A stretch of 52,282 nucleotides of DNA. It comes from Rhodospirillales bacterium. GTDB lineage: Bacteria > Pseudomonadota > Alphaproteobacteria > Acetobacterales > Acetobacteraceae. The stretch spans positions 1 to 52,282 of the forward strand of contig JAGWRU010000001.1 of the NCBI GenBank assembly GCA_028869595.1, given 5' to 3'. The notes beneath the pieces are model-generated. The model made no database searches, was not told the DNA's origin, and worked only from the letters and a program-made list of their open reading frames with translations. Below are positions 14,320-24,690 of this stretch, in pieces. Each line of letters begins with the position of its first letter. Positions within the stretch are counted from its first letter, which is position 1. Position numbers and translations under genes: made by a program.

Positions 14320-14330
14320 AGGACGACCCC

Positions 14331-14527
14331 CCTCTGTCGCGGTACCTGAGAGATTCGGAAGGCGCCGGCATAAGCCGGGCGGCCCTCCTTTCTCCGTCGG
14401 TGCGCCCCGCCTTGCGGCGACGCGGCTTTCCAGAGATCCCTTGTTCCAGCGCGGTCCTTTGTGCCTGAGCGTTTCCGGGGGCCGGTTGCGCCTTCGGCGG
14501 CGGGCAAGCCCGCACTCTCCCGCGCCG
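14331..14527 (-). ncRNA. Tandem glycine riboswitch (two aptamers)
   Basis: On the minus strand the leader of gcvT has both aptamer signatures. Aptamer 1 lies at about 14527-14450: GGGAGAGTGCGG, then GCCGAAGGCGCAACC, then GCTCAGGCACAAAGGACCG. A short linker follows. Aptamer 2 lies at about 14437-14331: GATCTCTGGAAAG, then CACCGACGGAGAAAGG, then TCTCAGGTACCGCGACAGAG. This is the classical tandem arrangement upstream of glycine cleavage genes, where glycine binding turns the operon on. The conserved CTCAGG elements are intact in both halves. Confidence 0.93.
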
Positions 14528-14545
14528 GATGCTCGGGACAGCGCG

Positions 14546-14599: not shown

Positions 14600-15784
14600 T
14601 TACCGCCCGGCATGCGCCGTCATTGCCGCCCGGCCACCCGATGCCAGCACGATGTCCCCGGCGCCCGGGCGGAGGGATGGGCCGGTGGCGGATGGCTTCG
14701 CTGATCCCGGCGGCTGCGTCGCGGCCTTTGCGATGGTGCCGCCGGGTCGGGCCGGCCAGGCCAGATCGCAGCGCATGCGGGCCGGCGCCTGGCCCAGGCA
14801 GGCGGCGAGGCGTGTCGTCAGGCGTGGCGCGCCGCGCGGATTGAGGTGCGAGAAGCCATCGCCGAAATACCGGTCGGGCCAGGCGGTGAACAAGGGTGCT
14901 ACGATGTGAAACCCCGGATAACGCGCGGCATAGCCGGCCAGATAGGCGGCAAAGCCGCGCCGCAAAGCGGGCGCGATCGCATCCCCGGTGGCGCGGTTGA
15001 CCGGCATCGCCAGAAACACCGCCGCGACATGGTGCCGGGCGAGCAGCGTCAGCATGCGGTCGAAATAGAAATCCAGGATCGGCAGGGCACGGAAATCGCC
15101 CAGCGCGGCATCTTCGGCCACTATGTCGGATCGGTCGGCGGTGCCGAAGAAATACTGCCCGCCGGCAGCACGCACCCGGGCCAGCACGCGGCGATTGCGC
15201 CATAGCCGCAGGAATACCCCGCCATGCACCAGGTTGGCGGTGTAATGCGACGGAAAATGCACTTCGTACAGCCAGGCGCGCAGCCGGGCCGGCACGCCAT
15301 CGGTATTGCGCAGCGCATAAAGCGATGGGTCGCCGAGCCGGGCCGAGGCGCGGCGCAGCCCGGCCAGATCGCGGCCTTCGACGAAGCCGAAGCGCACGCT
15401 GCGTTCCCAGAACAGGTCGGGGCGCATGAAATGCCCGGGATCGAGAGAGATCACCACCAGCTTCGGCGCGCGCGGGCAGGCCAGCGCCCGGCGCAGCGCG
15501 GCATAGGCCTCGATCGTTTCGCCGCCGCCGATGGCCAGATTGCTGACCGCGACCGGCAGGCGCGCCGGCATGATATCGGCGGCGGCGCGCGAGTCGCCGA
15601 CCACCAGAACCGGCGCCAGCGCGCAGCGATGCAGCATCGCGATCTTCACCGCCCAGGCCGGGTATTCGCGATCCAGGAAGGCCATCGGCATGGCCAGCAC
15701 CCAGACCCAGATCAGCGCGAGCGTCAGGCCGGCAGCGGTGAAGGCGGCGGCGAAGAAGCGCGGCGGAGAGAGCGGCGCGGACAT
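14600..15784 (-). CDS. SGNH-hydrolase-like membrane-anchored protein of the ACP-MBOAT cassette (DltD/AlgJ-like role)
   Basis: 394 aa. A single N-terminal membrane helix (about residues 10-33) is followed by an exported domain. VLVVGDSRAA (residues 59-68) provides the nucleophile Ser65 in a GDS motif, and DGFSHLNPRGA (Asp309, His313) supplies the acid and base. Such proteins pair with MBOAT acyltransferases to place acyl groups on extracytoplasmic glycans. ATG at 15784 is chosen as the first residue before the helix; the frame continues open upstream but inside the MBOAT gene. It lies 13 bp after the MBOAT stop. The last 70 residues are Pro/Gly-rich and low complexity. Confidence 0.75.
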   Translation of the reverse strand: MSAPLSPPRFFAAAFTAAGLTLALIWVWVLAMPMAFLDREYPAWAVKIAMLHRCALAPVLVVGDSRAAADIMPARLPVAVSNLAIGGGETIEAYAALRRALACPRAPKLVVISLDPGHFMRPDLFWERSVRFGFVEGRDLAGLRRASARLGDPSLYALRNTDGVPARLRAWLYEVHFPSHYTANLVHGGVFLRLWRNRRVLARVRAAGGQYFFGTADRSDIVAEDAALGDFRALPILDFYFDRMLTLLARHHVAAVFLAMPVNRATGDAIAPALRRGFAAYLAGYAARYPGFHIVAPLFTAWPDRYFGDGFSHLNPRGAPRLTTRLAACLGQAPARMRCDLAWPARPGGTIAKAATQPPGSAKPSATGPSLRPGAGDIVLASGGRAAMTAHAGR

Positions 15785-15797
15785 GCCCTGCCGCGCT

Positions 15798-17351
15798 TCA
15801 GAACTGGAAATAGAGGAATTCGCTGGTGCCGCCGACCGACAGCAGCGCCGCCATCGCCGCAACGCCGCCGGCCAGCGCCCAGGGCAGGCTGAGCCGAAAG
15901 CGCAGCCGGCTTGCCGCGCCTTTGCCGGCCTCGCCCATGATCTGCTGGGTGGTCGGGGCGAGAAAGATGATCGCATACAGACCGCCCAGCCACAGCCAGG
16001 CGACGGCATGATGCCCCGCTGCCACCAGGCTGGCGCCGACCAGCAACCCGTGCCCGTCCGAGGCAATGAATGGCAGCGCCACATGCCTCACCCCGTGCCT
16101 GCCTGCCATCGCCGCCAGCATCGCCCATGCCGCCCCGTCGGAGGGCGCGCGAAACAGCACCGTGCCGACCAGCACGCCCAGATAGGTCAGCGCCACGCGG
16201 CACAGACGGGCGGGCCGGCGCGACGATGGCCGGCGCGGCCCGAAGCAGCGCCAGGCGTGGTTCACCGTCAGCAGCGCCGCATGCCACAGCCCGAACAGCA
16301 GATACTGCCAGCCGCTGCCGTGCCAGATGCCGGCCAGGGTCATGGTCACAAGGAGGGGCATGGCCAGCGTCTCGGTGAAGCCGCCAAGGCTCGTCGCGCC
16401 GGGCCGCTCCGGTATCTGCCCGCGCGCGCCGCGCCGGCGGGCGGCGGCCATCGCCAGCGGGTTGAACAGATAAAGGGTCAGCCAGCGGGTCAGCGTCATA
16501 TGCCAGCGCTGCCAGTAATCGATCACGCTTTCGGCGCGGTAGGGCGCGTTGAAGTTCTGCGGGAAACGCAGGTTGAACATCCGCGCCAGCCCGATCGCCA
16601 TGTCCGAATAGCCCGAGAAATCGAAATAGAGCTGCAGCGAATAGGCCAGCACGGCATGCCAGGCGGCGAAGGCCGACAGCCCGCCCGGTGCGGCGAAGCC
16701 GGCGCCCGCTGCCGGCCCCAGCGGATCGGCCAGGGCGCATTTTTTCAGCAGGCCGATGGTGAAGATCGCAGCCCCGGCAACCAGGTTCTGCCCGTCCGGC
16801 CGGGCGATGGCGGGGTTGCGGAATTGCGGGATCATCTCGCGGTTGGACAGGATCGGCCCGGCGATCAGATGCGGAAAGAACGTCACGAACAGCAGATACG
16901 CAAGCGGGCCTTCCGCGGGCGCAAGCCCGGCGCGACGATCGATCAGCCAGCCGATCTGGGTGAAGGTGAAAAAGCTGATGCCCAACGGCAGGGCGATCGC
17001 CGGTAGCGTCGGCACCGAACCGAACGCCGCATGCAGCGTGCCCAGCAGATCGGCCAGGTATTTGTAGCGGATCAGCAGCGCCAGATTGGCCGCGATCCCC
17101 AGCCCGAGGAACAGGCCTTGCCGCGCGGGTCTGGCCTCGGCCGCGCCGATCAACCGTCCGCAGGCGTAATTGCCGGCGATCGAGGCGCCCAGCAGCAGCA
17201 GATAGGCCGGGTTCCACCAGCCATAGAATACCAGCGAGGCGAGCAGCAGAAAGACCAGCCCGGCCCGGCCGGACAGGCGCGACAGGGCGAAGAAACCGGC
17301 CAGGCTGAGCGGCAGGAACGCCAGCAGGAACACGTAGGAGTTGAACAGCAT
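15798..17351 (-). CDS. MBOAT-family O-acyltransferase (AlgI/DltB type), first copy
   Basis: 517 aa multispanning membrane protein. Family hallmarks are the N-terminal MLFNSYVFLLAFLP, GISFFTFTQIGWLID, LYFDFSGYSDMAIGLARM, the conserved His284 in YWQRWHMT and the catalytic His344 in GIWHGSGW. It ends in EFLYFQF, as AlgI-type proteins do. These enzymes move an acyl group from a cytoplasmic donor across the membrane. The donor here is probably the acyl carrier protein encoded 11 bp upstream, and the SGNH protein 13 bp downstream the final transferase. The acceptor glycan is unknown. Confidence 0.9.
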   Translation of the reverse strand: MLFNSYVFLLAFLPLSLAGFFALSRLSGRAGLVFLLLASLVFYGWWNPAYLLLLGASIAGNYACGRLIGAAEARPARQGLFLGLGIAANLALLIRYKYLADLLGTLHAAFGSVPTLPAIALPLGISFFTFTQIGWLIDRRAGLAPAEGPLAYLLFVTFFPHLIAGPILSNREMIPQFRNPAIARPDGQNLVAGAAIFTIGLLKKCALADPLGPAAGAGFAAPGGLSAFAAWHAVLAYSLQLYFDFSGYSDMAIGLARMFNLRFPQNFNAPYRAESVIDYWQRWHMTLTRWLTLYLFNPLAMAAARRRGARGQIPERPGATSLGGFTETLAMPLLVTMTLAGIWHGSGWQYLLFGLWHAALLTVNHAWRCFGPRRPSSRRPARLCRVALTYLGVLVGTVLFRAPSDGAAWAMLAAMAGRHGVRHVALPFIASDGHGLLVGASLVAAGHHAVAWLWLGGLYAIIFLAPTTQQIMGEAGKGAASRLRFRLSLPWALAGGVAAMAALLSVGGTSEFLYFQF

Positions 17352-17362
17352 CCCGGCTCGGC

Positions 17363-17617
17363 TCAGGCGGCGGAAAGGACGGATTTGGCCCGGATCAGCT
17401 GCATCAGGGCACCGACATCGTGCATCGCTTCGATCTCGCTGGCGTCGAAGGCGATGCCGAACCGGCATTCAGCCTCCACCGCGAGCGAGATCTGGGCGAG
17501 CGAGTCCCAGGCCGGCAGCGCATCGGGACTGCTTGCCTTGGTCAGTTCGATCGTCGCATCGCCCAGCACGTCGCGGAAAATCGCAGTGAGACGGGAGAGC
17601 AGCGCATCGTCATCCAT
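17363..17617 (-). CDS. Acyl carrier protein of the MBOAT cassette
   Basis: 84 aa. Phosphopantetheine attachment serine is Ser39 in PAWDSLAQI, in the place where standard ACPs have DSL. The protein is acidic and has the helical pattern of an ACP. The ATG at 17617 has GGAG six bases upstream. Being the first gene of a tight ACP-MBOAT-SGNH operon, it is likely a dedicated donor, functionally like DltC, rather than the fatty-acid synthesis ACP. No DltA-like adenylating ligase lies nearby, so the source of its acyl group is unknown. Confidence 0.85.
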   Translation of the reverse strand: MDDDALLSRLTAIFRDVLGDATIELTKASSPDALPAWDSLAQISLAVEAECRFGIAFDASEIEAMHDVGALMQLIRAKSVLSAA

Positions 17618-17961
17618 CCGAGTCTCCGCCGGCTGCGCGGTTGCCACGATGGCGAGTGCAACAGAGCGGGATGACCAAAGCGCTAATTTCGCGGTGTCCG
17701 ACCCTGCCTGGCTGGTTGTGGAACCGTCGCATTCGGTGGGAGCCGGGCCACGGAGAGCCAGGGAATCCGCCCCATGCATCCGCCGCGCATCCGCCGGCGC
17801 CGCCGGCGCGTAAGGCGCATATGAATGGTTGCACTCTTTCCCTGCCCGGCATGGCCGGTACCGGCGTGATGGATGCCCTGGTGCTGCGGCGGGATGCGGG
17901 TCGCTTGTTGCGCCGGGGCTCGGGGCGCTATGGTCAGGTCTTCCCACTCCCCGCCGGACCA
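17618..17961. other. 344-bp divergent region between the ACP cassette and the sigma factor
   Basis: This stretch should hold the promoter of the ACP cassette (minus) and that of the sigma factor (plus). A direct repeat GCATCCGCC occurs twice, 2 bp apart, near 17777-17796. On the plus strand GGAACC near 17722 resembles an ECF -35 box, but I find no convincing -10 partner. An ATG at 17821 with AAGG five bases upstream is in frame with the sigma factor and would lengthen it by 47 residues. No other gene is supported. Confidence 0.4.
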
Positions 17962-18582
17962 GTGCGTCGCGGCGGAGTTCGACGCGAGGCCACCCTGAAC
18001 GATACGCGCCGCCCCCCCGGTTCGGAGCAATCCGACCCTGCCGACCCAGCCGATCCGCCGATCGCAGCCCTGCTGCTCGGCTGTGCCCGCAAGGACGAGG
18101 CGGCGTTTCGCGCGCTTTATCGGCGCGAAGCGGCGCGGTTGCACGGCATTGCGCTCCGGATCACCCGCGAACGGGTGCTGGCGGCGGATGCGGTGCATGA
18201 TGTGTTCGTCAGCATCTGGCAGCACGCCAGCGCTTTCGACCCGGCGCGCGGCGCCGCCGAAGCCTGGTTGACCTCGATCGCCCGCTATCGCGCGCTGGAT
18301 ATCGTCCGCCGGCGGGCGCGGGAAGTGACCGGCGCGGAACCGCCGGAAGTCGCCGACCCCGAGCCGGATGCGCTGACCCGGCTGGCCGGCACGGCGGAAG
18401 TGGCGGCGCTGCGTCGCTGCCTCGACCTGCTGGATACGGAAAAGCGCCGGCTGGTGACGATGGCGTTTCTCGACGGGCTATCGCATAGCGAGCTGGCAAC
18501 CCGGCTGGGTATGGCACTGGGCACCGTGAAATCCTCCATCCGGCGCGGTCTCGCCGGTTTACGCCGGTGCCTGGAGCCATGA
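17962..18582 (+). CDS. ECF-type RNA polymerase sigma factor
   Basis: About 206 aa from GTG 17962. Region 2 is clear: FRALYRREAARLHGIALRI, then DAVHDVFVSIW, then AWLTSIARYRALDIVRR. Region 4 has LDTEKRRLVTMAFLDGLSHSELATRLGMALGTVKSSIRRGL, a typical helix-turn-helix. It overlaps the anti-sigma gene by 4 bp (ATGA). The start is uncertain: GTG 17962, CTG 17995 (with GAGG six bases upstream) and ATG 17821 are all in frame, and the conserved domain begins near 18058. It is divergent from the ACP-MBOAT-SGNH operon, which is a candidate target. Confidence 0.88.
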   Translation: MRRGGVRREATLNDTRRPPGSEQSDPADPADPPIAALLLGCARKDEAAFRALYRREAARLHGIALRITRERVLAADAVHDVFVSIWQHASAFDPARGAAEAWLTSIARYRALDIVRRRAREVTGAEPPEVADPEPDALTRLAGTAEVAALRRCLDLLDTEKRRLVTMAFLDGLSHSELATRLGMALGTVKSSIRRGLAGLRRCLEP

Positions 18583-19337
18583 GCGACAGCCCCGAGGACC
18601 GCGATCTGCTGGCCGGCATCTACGTGCTGGGCGTGCTCGATCTGGAAGAATGCCGCACGGTGGAGGATATGGCGCGTCTCGATCCGGCGATGGCCGAGGC
18701 GATCGAGGCCTGGCAGAACCGTCTCGCGCCGCTGGCCACGCTGGTCACCCCGGTCGCGCCGCCGCCGATACTGTGGCCGCGCATCGCCACCAGCCTGGGC
18801 ATCGAGGCCGCGCCGCATCCGCTGCCGGCGGCGCTGGGCCTGGTCCAGGCCGATCCTTCCGGCCAGACCGCCTTGTCCGGGCAGGCCGCGCGCCGGCCAT
18901 CGGTGGCCGGGCGGGTCTGGCGTTCCACCGGATTCTGGCGGGGCAGCACGGCGGCCGCGCTGGCGATCGCCGCCGGCATCGCCGCGTTCGCCCTGTTCCA
19001 GCCGCCGCCGCCACCGCGCTTTACCGCGGCCCTCGCGCCGCTGCATGCGCCAGGGGCCGCCTTCATCGCCGAGACCGAATCCGATGGTGCGCTGCTGGTG
19101 CGCCCGATCGCACCCGTTTCGGTGCAGCCGGGCAAGGATCTGGAATTGTGGGCGCTGGCGCCGGGGGCAAAGGTGCCGCGCCCGCTCGGCGTGCTGCCGG
19201 CCATCGGCAAGCGCGTGACGGGGCTGAAGCTCGCGGCCGATACCCAGATCATGATCAGCCTGGAACCGCAAGGCGGATCGCCGACGGGCTTGCCGACCGG
19301 CCCGGTGCTGTGGGCCGGCACGCTGGGCAAGCTGTAG
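18579..19337 (+). CDS. RskA-type anti-sigma factor
   Basis: 252 aa. The N-terminal cytoplasmic domain (about residues 1-85) starts DLLAGIYVLGVLDLEE, as in the ZAS-like domain of this group but without zinc ligands. A single membrane helix spans about residues 121-140. The periplasmic RskA C-terminal domain contains LELWALAPGAKVPRPLGVLP and ISLEPQGGSPTGLPTGPVLW, which is diagnostic. It should hold the co-encoded sigma factor at the membrane until an envelope signal triggers proteolysis. Translationally coupled to the sigma gene. Confidence 0.88.
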   Translation: MSDSPEDRDLLAGIYVLGVLDLEECRTVEDMARLDPAMAEAIEAWQNRLAPLATLVTPVAPPPILWPRIATSLGIEAAPHPLPAALGLVQADPSGQTALSGQAARRPSVAGRVWRSTGFWRGSTAAALAIAAGIAAFALFQPPPPPRFTAALAPLHAPGAAFIAETESDGALLVRPIAPVSVQPGKDLELWALAPGAKVPRPLGVLPAIGKRVTGLKLAADTQIMISLEPQGGSPTGLPTGPVLWAGTLGKL

Positions 19338-21020: not shown

Positions 21021-21326
21021 TCAGGCGGGCGCCGCGGCCCAGGCCAGCGGCGCCGCCTCGCGGAAGGCGAAGCGCAGCAGGTGGCGCTCGACCACGTCCT
21101 GCAATGTGCCCAGCGTCGCCGCATCCGGGGCGTCCAGATGCAGCACCAGCGCCTCCGCCTCGGCGCGGGCGATGCAATGCCCGCTCGGGAAGGCGATGCG
21201 GCCTTCGCTCTCGCCCTGGGTGACCGGCAGGCGATGGGCGAAATGCTTGCATAATTGCCCGAGATAGCGCCGCGCCATCGGGGTGGCGAAGCGCGCCTCG
21301 GCATGGGCAGGGAACAGCGCGTCCAT
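21021..21326 (-). CDS. DUF2218 protein
   Basis: 101 aa. It matches the DUF2218 pattern: ARFATPMARRYLGQLCKHFAHRLPV, GRIAFPSGHC, then VVERHLLRFAFREAAPLAW. DUF2218 domains often occur with siderophore-interacting (YqjH-type) proteins, but no such protein is next to it here. It is the second gene of a unit with the His-rich PadR regulator; its ATG shares one base with the PadR stop (TGATG). A role in metal homeostasis is inference from the neighbour and family. Confidence 0.85.
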   Translation of the reverse strand: MDALFPAHAEARFATPMARRYLGQLCKHFAHRLPVTQGESEGRIAFPSGHCIARAEAEALVLHLDAPDAATLGTLQDVVERHLLRFAFREAAPLAWAAAPA

Positions 21327-22081
21327 CAGATCTGCTCCACGGCAGTGGCGGCGGCATCGATGGCGGCGGCGATGGCGTTGGTTGCCGCCTCGTCGGGGCG
21401 CGCGCGGGCCAGGCGCAGACGCAGCGCCAGTTTGAGATTTTCCATCGCCCGCAGGATCTGCGGCGCCGGTCCGTCGCCCTGGATGCGCGCCGCCTCGTCC
21501 ATGCGCGCGAGCAGGGCGTCGCGCATCGCCGCATTGGCGGTCAATTGCGCCTCGCCTTCCGCCGTGATGGCGTAGAGTTTGCGCGGGCCCTCGCTGCTGG
21601 CGCTGACCTGTCCGGTTTCCTCCAGCAGCGTCAGGGTCGGGTAGATCACGCCCGGGCTCGGGCTGTAGGTGCCGCCCACCCGTTCCTCGATCGCCTTGAT
21701 GATCTCATAGCCGTGGCGCGGCTTTTCGGCGATCAGATGAAGGATCACCAGGCGCAGATCGCCATGCGCGAAGAAGCGCCCGAGCCGGCCGGCGGGGCTG
21801 TCGCGGTGATGTTTCGGGCCGTGATGCTTGTGCTCGCCGTGCTTGTCGTCGTGATGGCGGTCGTCGCGATGCTTGGCCCCATGGTGCTTCGGGCCATGGT
21901 GCTTCGGGCCGTGATGCTTGGGGCCGCGATGCCGGACGTCATGCGCGTCCCCTTCATGGGCCTCGGGGCCGTGCGCCTGCGGGTCATGGGCGAAGCGCTG
22001 TCCGCCAGGCGCGGCGCTGGCCGGCGCCGAAGCGTGGGGGCGGCGATGGGCGTGGAGATGATGGCGAAGCCGATCGAACAT
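21326..22081 (-). CDS. PadR-family regulator with histidine-rich N-terminal extension (YqjI-like)
   Basis: 251 aa. Residues 1-95 are rich in His, Lys, Asp and Pro, with HHGPK repeated four times or nearly so, a likely metal-binding segment. The PadR winged helix follows: GRFFAHGDLRLVILHLIAEK, HGYEIIKAIEE and the SPSPGVIYPTLTLLEE motif. The last third is helical and dimer-forming. The layout and the RFF-HG-LRLVIL segment match E. coli YqjI, a nickel-responsive repressor. The ATG has GGAG seven bases upstream. A strong inverted repeat overlaps its promoter, so autoregulation is expected. Confidence 0.85.
   Translation of the reverse strand: MFDRLRHHLHAHRRPHASAPASAAPGGQRFAHDPQAHGPEAHEGDAHDVRHRGPKHHGPKHHGPKHHGAKHRDDRHHDDKHGEHKHHGPKHHRDSPAGRLGRFFAHGDLRLVILHLIAEKPRHGYEIIKAIEERVGGTYSPSPGVIYPTLTLLEETGQVSASSEGPRKLYAITAEGEAQLTANAAMRDALLARMDEAARIQGDGPAPQILRAMENLKLALRLRLARARPDEAATNAIAAAIDAAATAVEQI
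21805..21929. repeat. In-frame 15-bp repeats encoding HHGPK units
   Basis: Tandem 15-bp units of the form ATGGTGCTTCGGGCC (plus strand) run from about 21875 to 21925, with degenerate copies from about 21805. They encode the HHGPK repeats of the PadR N-terminus. The nearly identical neighbouring units suggest recent slippage expansion, so repeat number may vary between strains. Confidence 0.7.
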
Positions 22082-22150: not shown

Positions 22151-23209
22151 TCAGTGTCGCCGCAGCAGCGCGAAGGCGATCGATCCGCCTTCCTCCCCCG
22201 GCGGCCGCGGGCAGACCTCCCCGGCCGGCAGGGGAATGGCCGGCGCCGGACCCGCCATCACCCCGAGCAGCGGTGCCAGAGCGCGCGCCACCAGCACCGA
22301 ATGGGCGATCTGGCAGGGCTCGCTGAGGTGATCGGGCGTGTCGAAGAAATCGGCGCGCGGATAGCGGCTGTGATTGGCCAGGACCAGAAACCCTGCCCCG
22401 TGCGCGCGATACAGTGCGGCGATCGCGGTCAGTGTCGCGGGCGGGATCGGGCTGTCGGCAAATCCCGTCGGCAGGCCGCCGATCGCCGTTATCCCGTGAT
22501 TGCGCGCCCAGTCGAGGAAGGTTGCGATCTCCCGGCTGCCGAAGCCGTTGCGCACCTGCCGGGCGCTGGCATGCCAGGGCTGGGCGGCGGCCAGCGCAGG
22601 GCGGTCGATCGCGCCCAATGCCGGGCTGTGCCCGACATGATCGCCCCAGCGATTCGAAGCCCCTTCCGTCATGGCGCGCGGATCGTGAAATCCGCCGGCC
22701 ACCAGCGCGGTTTCGATGCCGCTCATGATCGCCCCGTTCAGATCGCCGGAAAACGCCGCCCCCAGCCAGCGGCGCGGGCCTAGCCGGGCGAGCTTGCGCC
22801 AGTCATGGCGGAACAGGATCGTCGCGTCCGGGCCCAGCCCGGAAGCCGCCCGTCCGCGCGCATACTGCGCCTCCTCCATCGGTAGATAGACGGCATCGCC
22901 CGGATGCAGCAGTGCCTCCCAGTCCAGGAACAGCGTATCGAGGCCGATCCCCACCGCGACGCCGGCATTGATGCAGGGCCGGTGCAGCATCGTCCCGATC
23001 ACCTGGCAGCGATGCGAATAAGGCCCGTTGGAGCCGGCCAGGATCACCAGCTTCGGCCCGCGCGCCGCTGCCCCCTCGGCCAGCCGGGCGGCGATCTGGG
23101 CGCGGATGAAGCCGAGCGTCAAAGGCCGGTCCAGCACGCAGGCGAAGGCCGTCCAATAGAGCAGCAGCGACAATGCGCAGGCGCCGAGCAGCCGGGCGAA
23201 AGGACGCAT
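22151..23209 (-). CDS. SGNH-like protein of the second MBOAT cassette
   Basis: 352 aa. An N-terminal signal anchor (about residues 7-26) is followed by an exported domain. VILAGSNGPYSHR (residues 55-67) places a serine (Ser60) where SGNH enzymes have GDS, here in a GSNG form. A late DTPDHLSEP segment offers Asp290 and His294 at the same spacing as in the first cassette. The start shares one base with the MBOAT stop (TGATG), so the two are co-translated. Probable role: final transfer of an acyl group to an extracytoplasmic polymer. The two SGNH proteins are only distantly alike. Confidence 0.7.
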   Translation of the reverse strand: MRPFARLLGACALSLLLYWTAFACVLDRPLTLGFIRAQIAARLAEGAAARGPKLVILAGSNGPYSHRCQVIGTMLHRPCINAGVAVGIGLDTLFLDWEALLHPGDAVYLPMEEAQYARGRAASGLGPDATILFRHDWRKLARLGPRRWLGAAFSGDLNGAIMSGIETALVAGGFHDPRAMTEGASNRWGDHVGHSPALGAIDRPALAAAQPWHASARQVRNGFGSREIATFLDWARNHGITAIGGLPTGFADSPIPPATLTAIAALYRAHGAGFLVLANHSRYPRADFFDTPDHLSEPCQIAHSVLVARALAPLLGVMAGPAPAIPLPAGEVCPRPPGEEGGSIAFALLRRH

Positions 23210-24690
23210 CAGAACCGGAAATACAGGAACGGCGCGACATGCGGGGCGAAGAACAGCCCCTGCATGGAAAGCGCAAATCCCGCCACCAGCGCGCGCATCT
23301 GCCCGTTGCGGCGCATGCGATGCAGCGAAGGCAGAAACAACACGATGGCCCAGCCCAGTGCCAGCAGCGCCACGGCCTGGGGCAGGGCCAAAGTGCGGGC
23401 ATCGCCGAGATGGGCGAGCATGGCGACCGGGCGGAAGAATGGCTGGACCCAGGGCAGGGCGCGCCAGATCATCGCCGGCAGGGCGCAGCCATTCAGCCCG
23501 GCCAGGCCGCGCAGCATCGCCCCGCTTGCCGCCATGCCCTCGGCGCGGAACGGCACCCAGGCGAGGATCACGGCGGCGAGCGTCAGACATTGCGCGAGCA
23601 GCCCTGGCAGGCGCAGCCCGAGGCGCCGCCAGAGACGCTCGGTGATCAGAAACACCCCGTGCAGACCGCCCCAGAGCACGAAACGCCAGGCCGCCCCATG
23701 CCACAGCCCGCATAGCAGCATGGTGGCCATCAGGTTGCAGCCCGCCCGCCATGCCCCGGACCGATTGCCGCCGAGCGGAATATAGACGTAGTCGCGCAGA
23801 AACCGGCCCAGCGTGATATGCCAGCGGCGCCAGAAATCGCCGATGCCGCGGGCCTGATAGGGGCTGTCGAAATTCAGCGGAAACCGCACGTTCAGCATCC
23901 GCGCCAGGCCGATCGCCATGTCGGAATAGGCGGAAAAATCGAAATAGATCTGCAGGGCATAGGCGAGCGTGGCGACCCAGGCCTCCAGCAGGCTCGGTTG
24001 TGCGCCGGCGGCGGCGGCGGCGAAGCCGGGATCGGCAAGGGCGCCGAAGGCATCGGCCAGCACCAGCTTCTTGGCCAGCCCGAGCAGGAACAGCGTCGCC
24101 CCCGCCGCCAGTGCCTCCGCATCCGGGCGGGCCAGGGCGGGGCGGCGAAGCTGGGCGATGATCTCCGCCGGGCGGACGATGGGCCCGGCGATCAGATGCG
24201 GGAAGAAGGCGATGAAGGCGGCATAGTCGCGCAGATTGCGCGCCGGGCAGCCGCTGCGCGCGGTATCGACCAGAAACATCACCTGCTGGAAGGTGAAGAA
24301 GCTGATCGCCAGCGGCAGCACGATGCCGCTGGCCGGCGCCGCCCGCCCCGTGAGCGCGCCGGTAAGCGCGGCGAGGCTGCCCCACACGAAATCGGCATAT
24401 TTGAACACCCCGAGCAGGCCGAGATCGAAGACCAGCCCGACGATCAGCCAGCGCCGCGCGCGATTGCCGGGGCGGGCCGCGTCGATCCGCCGCGCCAGGG
24501 CATAATTGACCAGAATGGAGCCGCCCAGCAGCAGCACATAAGGCGGGTTCCACCAGGCATAGAACACCAGACTGCCGCCAATCACCGCCGCCAGCGCGCC
24601 ACCCACCCCGCCCCATCGCCCGGCCAGAAAAAAAACCGCCAGCATCGCCGGCAGAAAGCCCAGCACGAAAACCGGCGTATTGAACAACAT
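23209..24690 (-). CDS. MBOAT-family O-acyltransferase, second copy
   Basis: 493 aa multispanning protein. It begins MLFNTPVFVLGFLP and contains LAISFFTFQQVMFLVD, FFPHLIAGPI, IYFDFSAYSDMAIGLARM, His291 in FWRRWHIT, the VYIPLGGNR loop of AlgI, and the catalytic His331 in GLWHGAAW. It ends in FLYFRF. It is closer to the AlgI/PatA pattern (IPLGGNR present) than the first copy, which lacks that loop. The gene is coupled to the SGNH gene, but no ACP accompanies this cassette. Confidence 0.9.
   Translation of the reverse strand: MLFNTPVFVLGFLPAMLAVFFLAGRWGGVGGALAAVIGGSLVFYAWWNPPYVLLLGGSILVNYALARRIDAARPGNRARRWLIVGLVFDLGLLGVFKYADFVWGSLAALTGALTGRAAPASGIVLPLAISFFTFQQVMFLVDTARSGCPARNLRDYAAFIAFFPHLIAGPIVRPAEIIAQLRRPALARPDAEALAAGATLFLLGLAKKLVLADAFGALADPGFAAAAAGAQPSLLEAWVATLAYALQIYFDFSAYSDMAIGLARMLNVRFPLNFDSPYQARGIGDFWRRWHITLGRFLRDYVYIPLGGNRSGAWRAGCNLMATMLLCGLWHGAAWRFVLWGGLHGVFLITERLWRRLGLRLPGLLAQCLTLAAVILAWVPFRAEGMAASGAMLRGLAGLNGCALPAMIWRALPWVQPFFRPVAMLAHLGDARTLALPQAVALLALGWAIVLFLPSLHRMRRNGQMRALVAGFALSMQGLFFAPHVAPFLYFRF

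Follow-up and report, generated by a model that had tools for sequence, protein, structure and literature searches.

A candidate Gram-negative counterpart of the Dlt acylation system, with a carrier protein probably charged by an FkbH-type enzyme

A compact cassette of three genes

A 52,282-nucleotide stretch of DNA from a Rhodospirillales bacterium of the family Acetobacteraceae (contig JAGWRU010000001.1, positions 1 to 52,282), hereafter called the window, carries on its minus strand three co-directional genes whose products resemble components of the Gram-positive Dlt system. A dedicated acyl carrier protein (ACP) of 84 residues is encoded at 17363..17617, with a predicted phosphopantetheine site at Ser39 (codon 17501-17503). 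Next comes the gene for a DltB-like acyltransferase of the MBOAT family (15798..17351; 517 residues, catalytic His344 and His284), followed by that for an N-terminally anchored, DltD-like SGNH protein (14600..15784; 394 residues, with Ser65, Asp309 and His313). The gaps between successive genes are 11 base pairs (bp) for ACP and MBOAT and 13 bp for MBOAT and SGNH. A preliminary description made from the letters alone had given this arrangement; its coordinates proved exact, and the residues that it named in the three proteins are conserved across homologue alignments. We also sought the same gene order elsewhere and listed its neighbours. The ACP-MBOAT-SGNH order is repeated in many genomes, and is therefore not a product of chance.

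The MBOAT combines a carrier interface with a fused shuttle motif

The MBOAT matches PF03062 (E 5.6e-22), and its nearest NCBIfam match is DltB (TIGR04091), at 162 bits, which is under the 375-bit equivalog cut-off. When an alignment profile of the protein was compared with the PDB, DltB alone was found (6bug, E 5e-44), and the same entry is the best fold for the single-chain structure model (E 5e-11, template modelling (TM) scores 0.56/0.69). His284 and His344 are invariant in 30 homologues, as is Tyr514.

Alignment to DltB identifies a segment of 56 residues between the RWH and GIWHG motifs (16332..16499, minus strand) as the equivalent of the helix on which DltC docks. In DltB, residues M302, V305, I306, M309, K312 and R317 of this helix, HC, bind DltC (PMC11035591). 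The segment measures 56 residues in the window MBOAT. In the genome's three other MBOATs, all of them without an adjoining ACP, it measures 36. Nearly all members of the clade have 53-56 residues, the exceptions being a distant sequence adjacent to FkbH (44) and one member with the three-gene cassette, or triad (40). Arg307, which corresponds to Lys312 of DltB when the sequence alignment is extended by eye, is found in 27/27 clade rows of the alignment and is missing in the three ACP-less MBOATs. The window MBOAT thus has both the segment and the basic residue of a carrier-docking helix.

The MBOAT ends in FLYFQF (15801..15818, minus strand), a hexapeptide of the acyl-shuttle form FXYXXF that includes Tyr514. 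Nearly every MBOAT of the set has such a C-terminus, and the exceptions are rows in which the C-terminus is cut or unclear. This "acyl shuttle" resides on DltX in Dlt systems and on the MBOAT itself in PatA (PMC12148441). Because a DltB-like docking segment and a C-terminal FLYFQF occur on one protein, the window MBOAT is, judged by its sequence, a hybrid of a Dlt-type carrier interface and a PatA-type fused shuttle.

A second pair of the MBOAT-SGNH type, which is AlgI-like, lies at 22154-24690 on the minus strand. It lacks both an ACP and the docking segment, its MBOAT ends in FLYFRF and its partner gene has no Pfam match. The genome's own AlgI-type pair bears out the earlier view that the cassette is more than an ordinary alginate-acetylation pair, and assignment of the cassette itself to the AlgI type is rejected by the docking segment and by the MBOAT tree.

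The SGNH protein and the carrier

The SGNH protein matches no model in Pfam or NCBIfam. Asp64, Ser65, Asp309 and His313 are invariant in an alignment of 20 homologues, and the structure model (predicted local distance difference test score 85.5) contains a helix at residues 7-31. The top three PDB folds for this model are all DltD, with probability 1.00, and the similarity is weak (TM ~0.4, E 1.7e-3). A profile of the family alignment likewise ranks DltD first in the PDB, again weakly (E 0.038). Sequence, fold and docking-segment comparisons together support the reading of the cassette as DltC/DltB/DltD-like, and we accept the resemblance as genuine for each of the three proteins, with the weakest case for the SGNH protein.

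The ACP scores 22.6 bits with PF00550 (cut-off 20.8) and carries Ser39 within the sequence WDSL. With fatty-acid ACP models it reaches 14-20 bits versus cut-offs of 66-84. Because these scores are far too low and the ACP family travels with FkbH and MBOAT genes, the possibility raised at the outset that it is a stray acpP copy without a link to MBOAT genes was ruled out. A profile built from the ACPs of FkbH-MBOAT operons gives the window ACP 87 bits, and one built from ligase-linked ACPs of beta- and gammaproteobacteria gives it 17 bits; the protein is of the FkbH-linked type, yet does not adjoin an FkbH gene in its own genome. The closest solved ACP structure is 2lml (E 1.7e-10), which we take to be GmACP3 of Geobacter metallireducens from the 2011 paper of Ramelot et al., whose title, as listed in PMC4847154, proposes a role in lipopolysaccharide.

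FkbH is a recurrent partner in related operons

A genome scan with the window MBOAT yielded 80 loci, whose neighbours were called with profiles built for the purpose and checked with Pfam and NCBIfam. Three layouts recur. The first is FkbH-ACP-MBOAT with SGNH or AlgX genes, as in operons L018, L029, L044, L053, L063 and L185. The second, from beta- and gammaproteobacteria, is AlgX-AlgX-MBOAT-ACP-AMP ligase-AlgF, where the ligase belongs to the adenosine monophosphate (AMP)-forming type. The third, found mostly in Acetobacteraceae, consists of the triad alone, which is the window's own arrangement. In Rhodobacteraceae bacterium SC52, plasmid pSC52_6 carries an operon (G5B39_18520-18505) with ACP-FkbH-MBOAT, followed by a hypothetical protein of ~358 residues, with adjoining sulfotransferase genes.

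On a midpoint-rooted MBOAT tree of 67 rows, the FkbH-linked rows are deep and scattered, and ligase linkage arises within them. L029 and L053 are basal to the ligase clade, and in these loci FkbH occupies the slot that is held by the ligase in the AlgX clusters of beta- and gammaproteobacteria. A second case of ligase linkage, L184 and L190, is nested inside the Acetobacteraceae clade; the charging enzyme there was apparently exchanged independently. By parsimony on this tree, the simplest reading is that FkbH would have been the earlier partner, that ligases took its place on two or more occasions and that the linkage was lost in the branch of the window.

Since a scan with the MBOAT could bias linkage, a separate survey of 385 Alphaproteobacteria genomes was made with the window ACP as the sole query. 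FkbH lies within ~1.5 kilobases in 13/14 matches outside the window genome, six of which have FkbH-ACP-MBOAT. The refuting outcome of an ACP family unconnected with MBOAT genes was thus checked from the carrier's side as well, and linkage to both MBOAT and FkbH genes was found.

Within the family, the SGNH protein of the triad is present in 17/249 genomes. FkbH (E 1e-50 or better) is found in 15/17 of these versus 49/232 others (Fisher p 3e-8, uncorrected for kinship). As a control we took the AlgI-type pair at 22154-24690, which has no ACP. Its SGNH partner is present in 30 genomes, and among these FkbH occurs in 14/16 genomes with the triad versus 1/14 without it (p 1e-5, likewise uncorrected for kinship). 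One triad genome without FkbH, G073, has an AMP ligase beside the triad.

Several other arrangements were seen among these loci. In L184 and L190 (family genus g53) the triad is followed by an alpha/beta hydrolase and the AMP ligase, and in L190 a short-chain dehydrogenase comes next. Loci L011-L082 (Achromobacter, Pandoraea, Delftia, Pseudomonas, Stenotrophomonas and others) have the order GT2, NfrA/TPR protein, AlgX, AlgX, MBOAT, ACP, AMP ligase, AlgF and acyl-CoA dehydrogenase, which is apparently a carrier-dependent exopolysaccharide acylation system, perhaps with a processed acyl group. Many Acetobacteraceae have FkbH-ACP pairs with no adjoining MBOAT and with unrelated neighbours, for example a photolyase in L200 and an AMP ligase in L203.

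Candidate charging enzymes in the window genome

The window genome, an 86.7% complete draft, has its own FkbH at C11:6281-8179. The protein scores 289.6 bits with TIGR01686 (cut-off 146.65), its DLDNT and MSCRVLGR motifs are intact and it is 52% identical to the FkbH of operon L018. Its gene cluster contains exosortase A, an XrtA-type deacetylase, GT4 and two GNAT (FemAB-like) genes, and no ACP adjoins it. The complete FkbH-ACP-MBOAT-SGNH operon of L018 is flanked by GT4, two GNATs and the exosortase-associated O-glycosylation ligase TIGR03097. Because GT4, two GNATs and exosortase-associated genes flank the L018 operon and the window genome's FkbH alike, the window genome looks like a split version of an L018-type locus, as far as gene content indicates. 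The C11 cluster as a whole is not common to all triad genomes; in the family genomes with which it was compared, exosortase and FkbH genes lie on separate contigs.

C183 encodes another protein with an FkbH domain, which is more distantly related. The genome also has a second ACP of the same family at C85:41855 (L083 7826-8098), between hemF and an SDR gene, and this ACP is a possible partner of the genome's own FkbH.

The absence of an adenylating ligase from the window, noted earlier, extends to the whole contig, on which no AMP-binding domain was found. An ordinary Dlt locus with its ligase nearby, outside the window, had also been considered. None of the 10 ligases tested, out of 11 AMP-binding genes in the 86.7% complete genome, is a DltA; acyl-CoA synthetase models fit them best.

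A proposed acylation relay and its alternatives

We propose that the cassette probably supplies the carrier and the membrane components of a relay for extracytoplasmic O-acylation, similar to Dlt with a different first step, in which an FkbH enzyme would charge the ACP. Holo-ACP would be charged at Ser39 in the cytoplasm by the FkbH enzyme (HAD-IIIC) encoded in trans at C11:6281-8179. The acyl group would most likely be glyceryl, derived from 1,3-bisphosphoglycerate; glyceryl is the most economical choice because no further modifying enzyme was seen to recur in the operons inspected. The charged ACP would then dock on the HC-like segment of the MBOAT, and this enzyme, through His344, would transfer the acyl group to the far side of the membrane, onto Tyr514 of its own FLYFQF motif. 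The anchored SGNH protein, with Ser65-Asp309-His313, would take the group from Tyr514 and esterify a surface glycan, plausibly an exosortase-associated exopolysaccharide as suggested by two genomic contexts. In the preliminary description the ACP could carry a fatty or acetyl-type group from the general pool; its role as a carrier is kept, while FkbH linkage in relatives indicates that the group probably comes instead from an FkbH-type enzyme encoded elsewhere.

Several observations weigh against this proposal. FkbH is unlinked to the triad in the window genome, and another charging enzyme could be missing from the incomplete draft. G077, a 94% complete draft, has the triad and neither FkbH nor an adjacent ligase, and an AMP ligase lies beside the triad in both G073 and G150. 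In many relatives FkbH has an adjacent ACP of its own and may serve another pathway. The ligase-side ACPs L219, L226 and L227 score with the FkbH type, so that carrier type tracks clade as well as charging enzyme. The similarity of the SGNH protein to DltD is weak, and no published experiment on any member of the cassette family was found.

Charging in trans by an AMP-forming ligase, which would load an amino, hydroxy or fatty acid into a Dlt-type relay, has precedent in the homologous clusters of beta- and gammaproteobacteria and in L184/L190, where an AMP-binding ligase lies beside ACP and MBOAT, and the 11 AMP-binding genes of the window genome offer candidates. We nevertheless regard it as unlikely: the ten ligases tested resemble acyl-CoA synthetases rather than DltA, the window contig has no AMP-binding gene, the ACP scores with the FkbH type rather than the beta/gamma ligase type, and ligase linkage looks derived on the MBOAT tree. 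We consider it likewise unlikely that the ACP draws on the general fatty-acid or acetyl pool, so that the ester would be a common acetyl or fatty acyl one. In favour of this view, no charging enzyme is encoded in the window operon, and acetyl-CoA is the donor for PatAB and similar MBOAT-SGNH pairs (PMC12148441). Against it, FkbH or a ligase is found repeatedly beside this ACP in related operons and would be needless under such charging.

If the MBOAT-SGNH pair instead used acyl-CoA, like AlgI/AlgJ or PatA/PatB, the ACP would be a bystander or a relic. The closely related MBOATs L008, L009, L010, L013 and L021 do lack an adjacent ACP; however, the whole clade retains the docking segment and its invariant Arg307, both of which the AlgI-type paralogues without an ACP lack, and ACP-MBOAT adjacency is widely conserved, which makes this explanation improbable. 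The chemistry of FkbH is described, and its products are oxidised or methylated further in polyketide clusters, as in methoxymalonyl-ACP (PMC7489565). A comparable modification after FkbH charging could be imagined here, particularly as the second ACP of the genome, on C85, adjoins an SDR gene. With no recurrent dehydrogenase or methyltransferase in the FkbH-ACP-MBOAT operons inspected, we consider this the least probable of the alternatives.

Relationship to known systems

The cassette shares with Dlt (DltA, DltB, DltC, DltD and DltX, from Gram-positive bacteria) a small carrier protein whose gene accompanies that of the MBOAT, the MBOAT docking segment, the shuttle tyrosine of FXYXXF and an anchored SGNH protein whose nearest fold, at weak similarity, is DltD. 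Unlike Dlt, it has no DltA that we could find among the ligases tested, with FkbH the likely charging enzyme, and no DltX, its shuttle motif being fused to the MBOAT; the gaps between its three genes (11 and 13 bp) are too short to hold a DltX gene. The host is moreover a Gram-negative alphaproteobacterium, and D-alanine and teichoic acid are not implicated. PatA-PatB and AlgI-AlgJ/AlgX resemble the cassette in their Gram-negative hosts, in an MBOAT with C-terminal FXYXXF and in an SGNH partner, but they use acyl-CoA and no carrier protein (PMC12148441), whereas the cassette has an adjacent ACP and a docking segment. Membership in Dlt fails on DltA and DltX, and membership in the AlgI/PatA group fails on the carrier. 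A small, stand-alone ACP also accompanies an FkbH-type enzyme in tetronate and methoxymalonyl pathways (for example Mad7/Mad8 and Mad14/Mad12). In those pathways glyceryl-ACP goes into a polyketide, while the genes next to that of the window ACP encode a membrane acyltransferase and an SGNH protein.

In the literature outside subscription papers, we found nothing that joins MBOAT, SGNH and acyl carrier proteins, and FkbH together with MBOAT only in two papers of the aeruginosin type. On balance, we lean towards the view that the cassette represents a widespread relay, a Gram-negative counterpart of Dlt that has apparently escaped description. In this relay FkbH would load a private ACP from 1,3-bisphosphoglycerate, the MBOAT-SGNH pair would export glyceryl onto surface polysaccharides or exopolysaccharides, and AMP ligases would replace FkbH in some branches.

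Glyceryl esters are known on bacterial polysaccharides, for example gellan, and to our knowledge they are enzymatically unexplained. If the proposal is correct, the cassette is a candidate source of such esters and, should the group indeed be glyceryl, its genes are candidates for glycerate esters on bacterial glycans. The reading predicts that the activated donor is the FkbH product, which would link glycolysis directly to the modification of surface polymers. It also makes single residues testable, namely Ser39, Arg307, Tyr514 and Ser65.

Other features near the cassette

An ECF sigma factor gene and an RskA-type anti-sigma gene (17641-19337, plus strand) are divergent from the cassette and may control it. 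The upstream partner conserved in close relatives is mostly AlgH (YqgE) in Acetobacteraceae, which we read as housekeeping synteny. A contig titled Nitrosovibrio sp. Nv4 (L012) also carries an Acetobacteraceae-type AlgH with the triad and is probably mis-binned or mis-titled.

A tandem glycine riboswitch lies at 14324-14532 on the minus strand, with two RF00504 matches of 67 and 45 bits. It is downstream of the SGNH gene and upstream of glycine cleavage genes on the same strand, and forms a unit separate from the cassette. Further along the window, the minus strand at 21326-22081 encodes a protein with a histidine-rich KHHGP repeat ahead of an apparently PadR-like domain.

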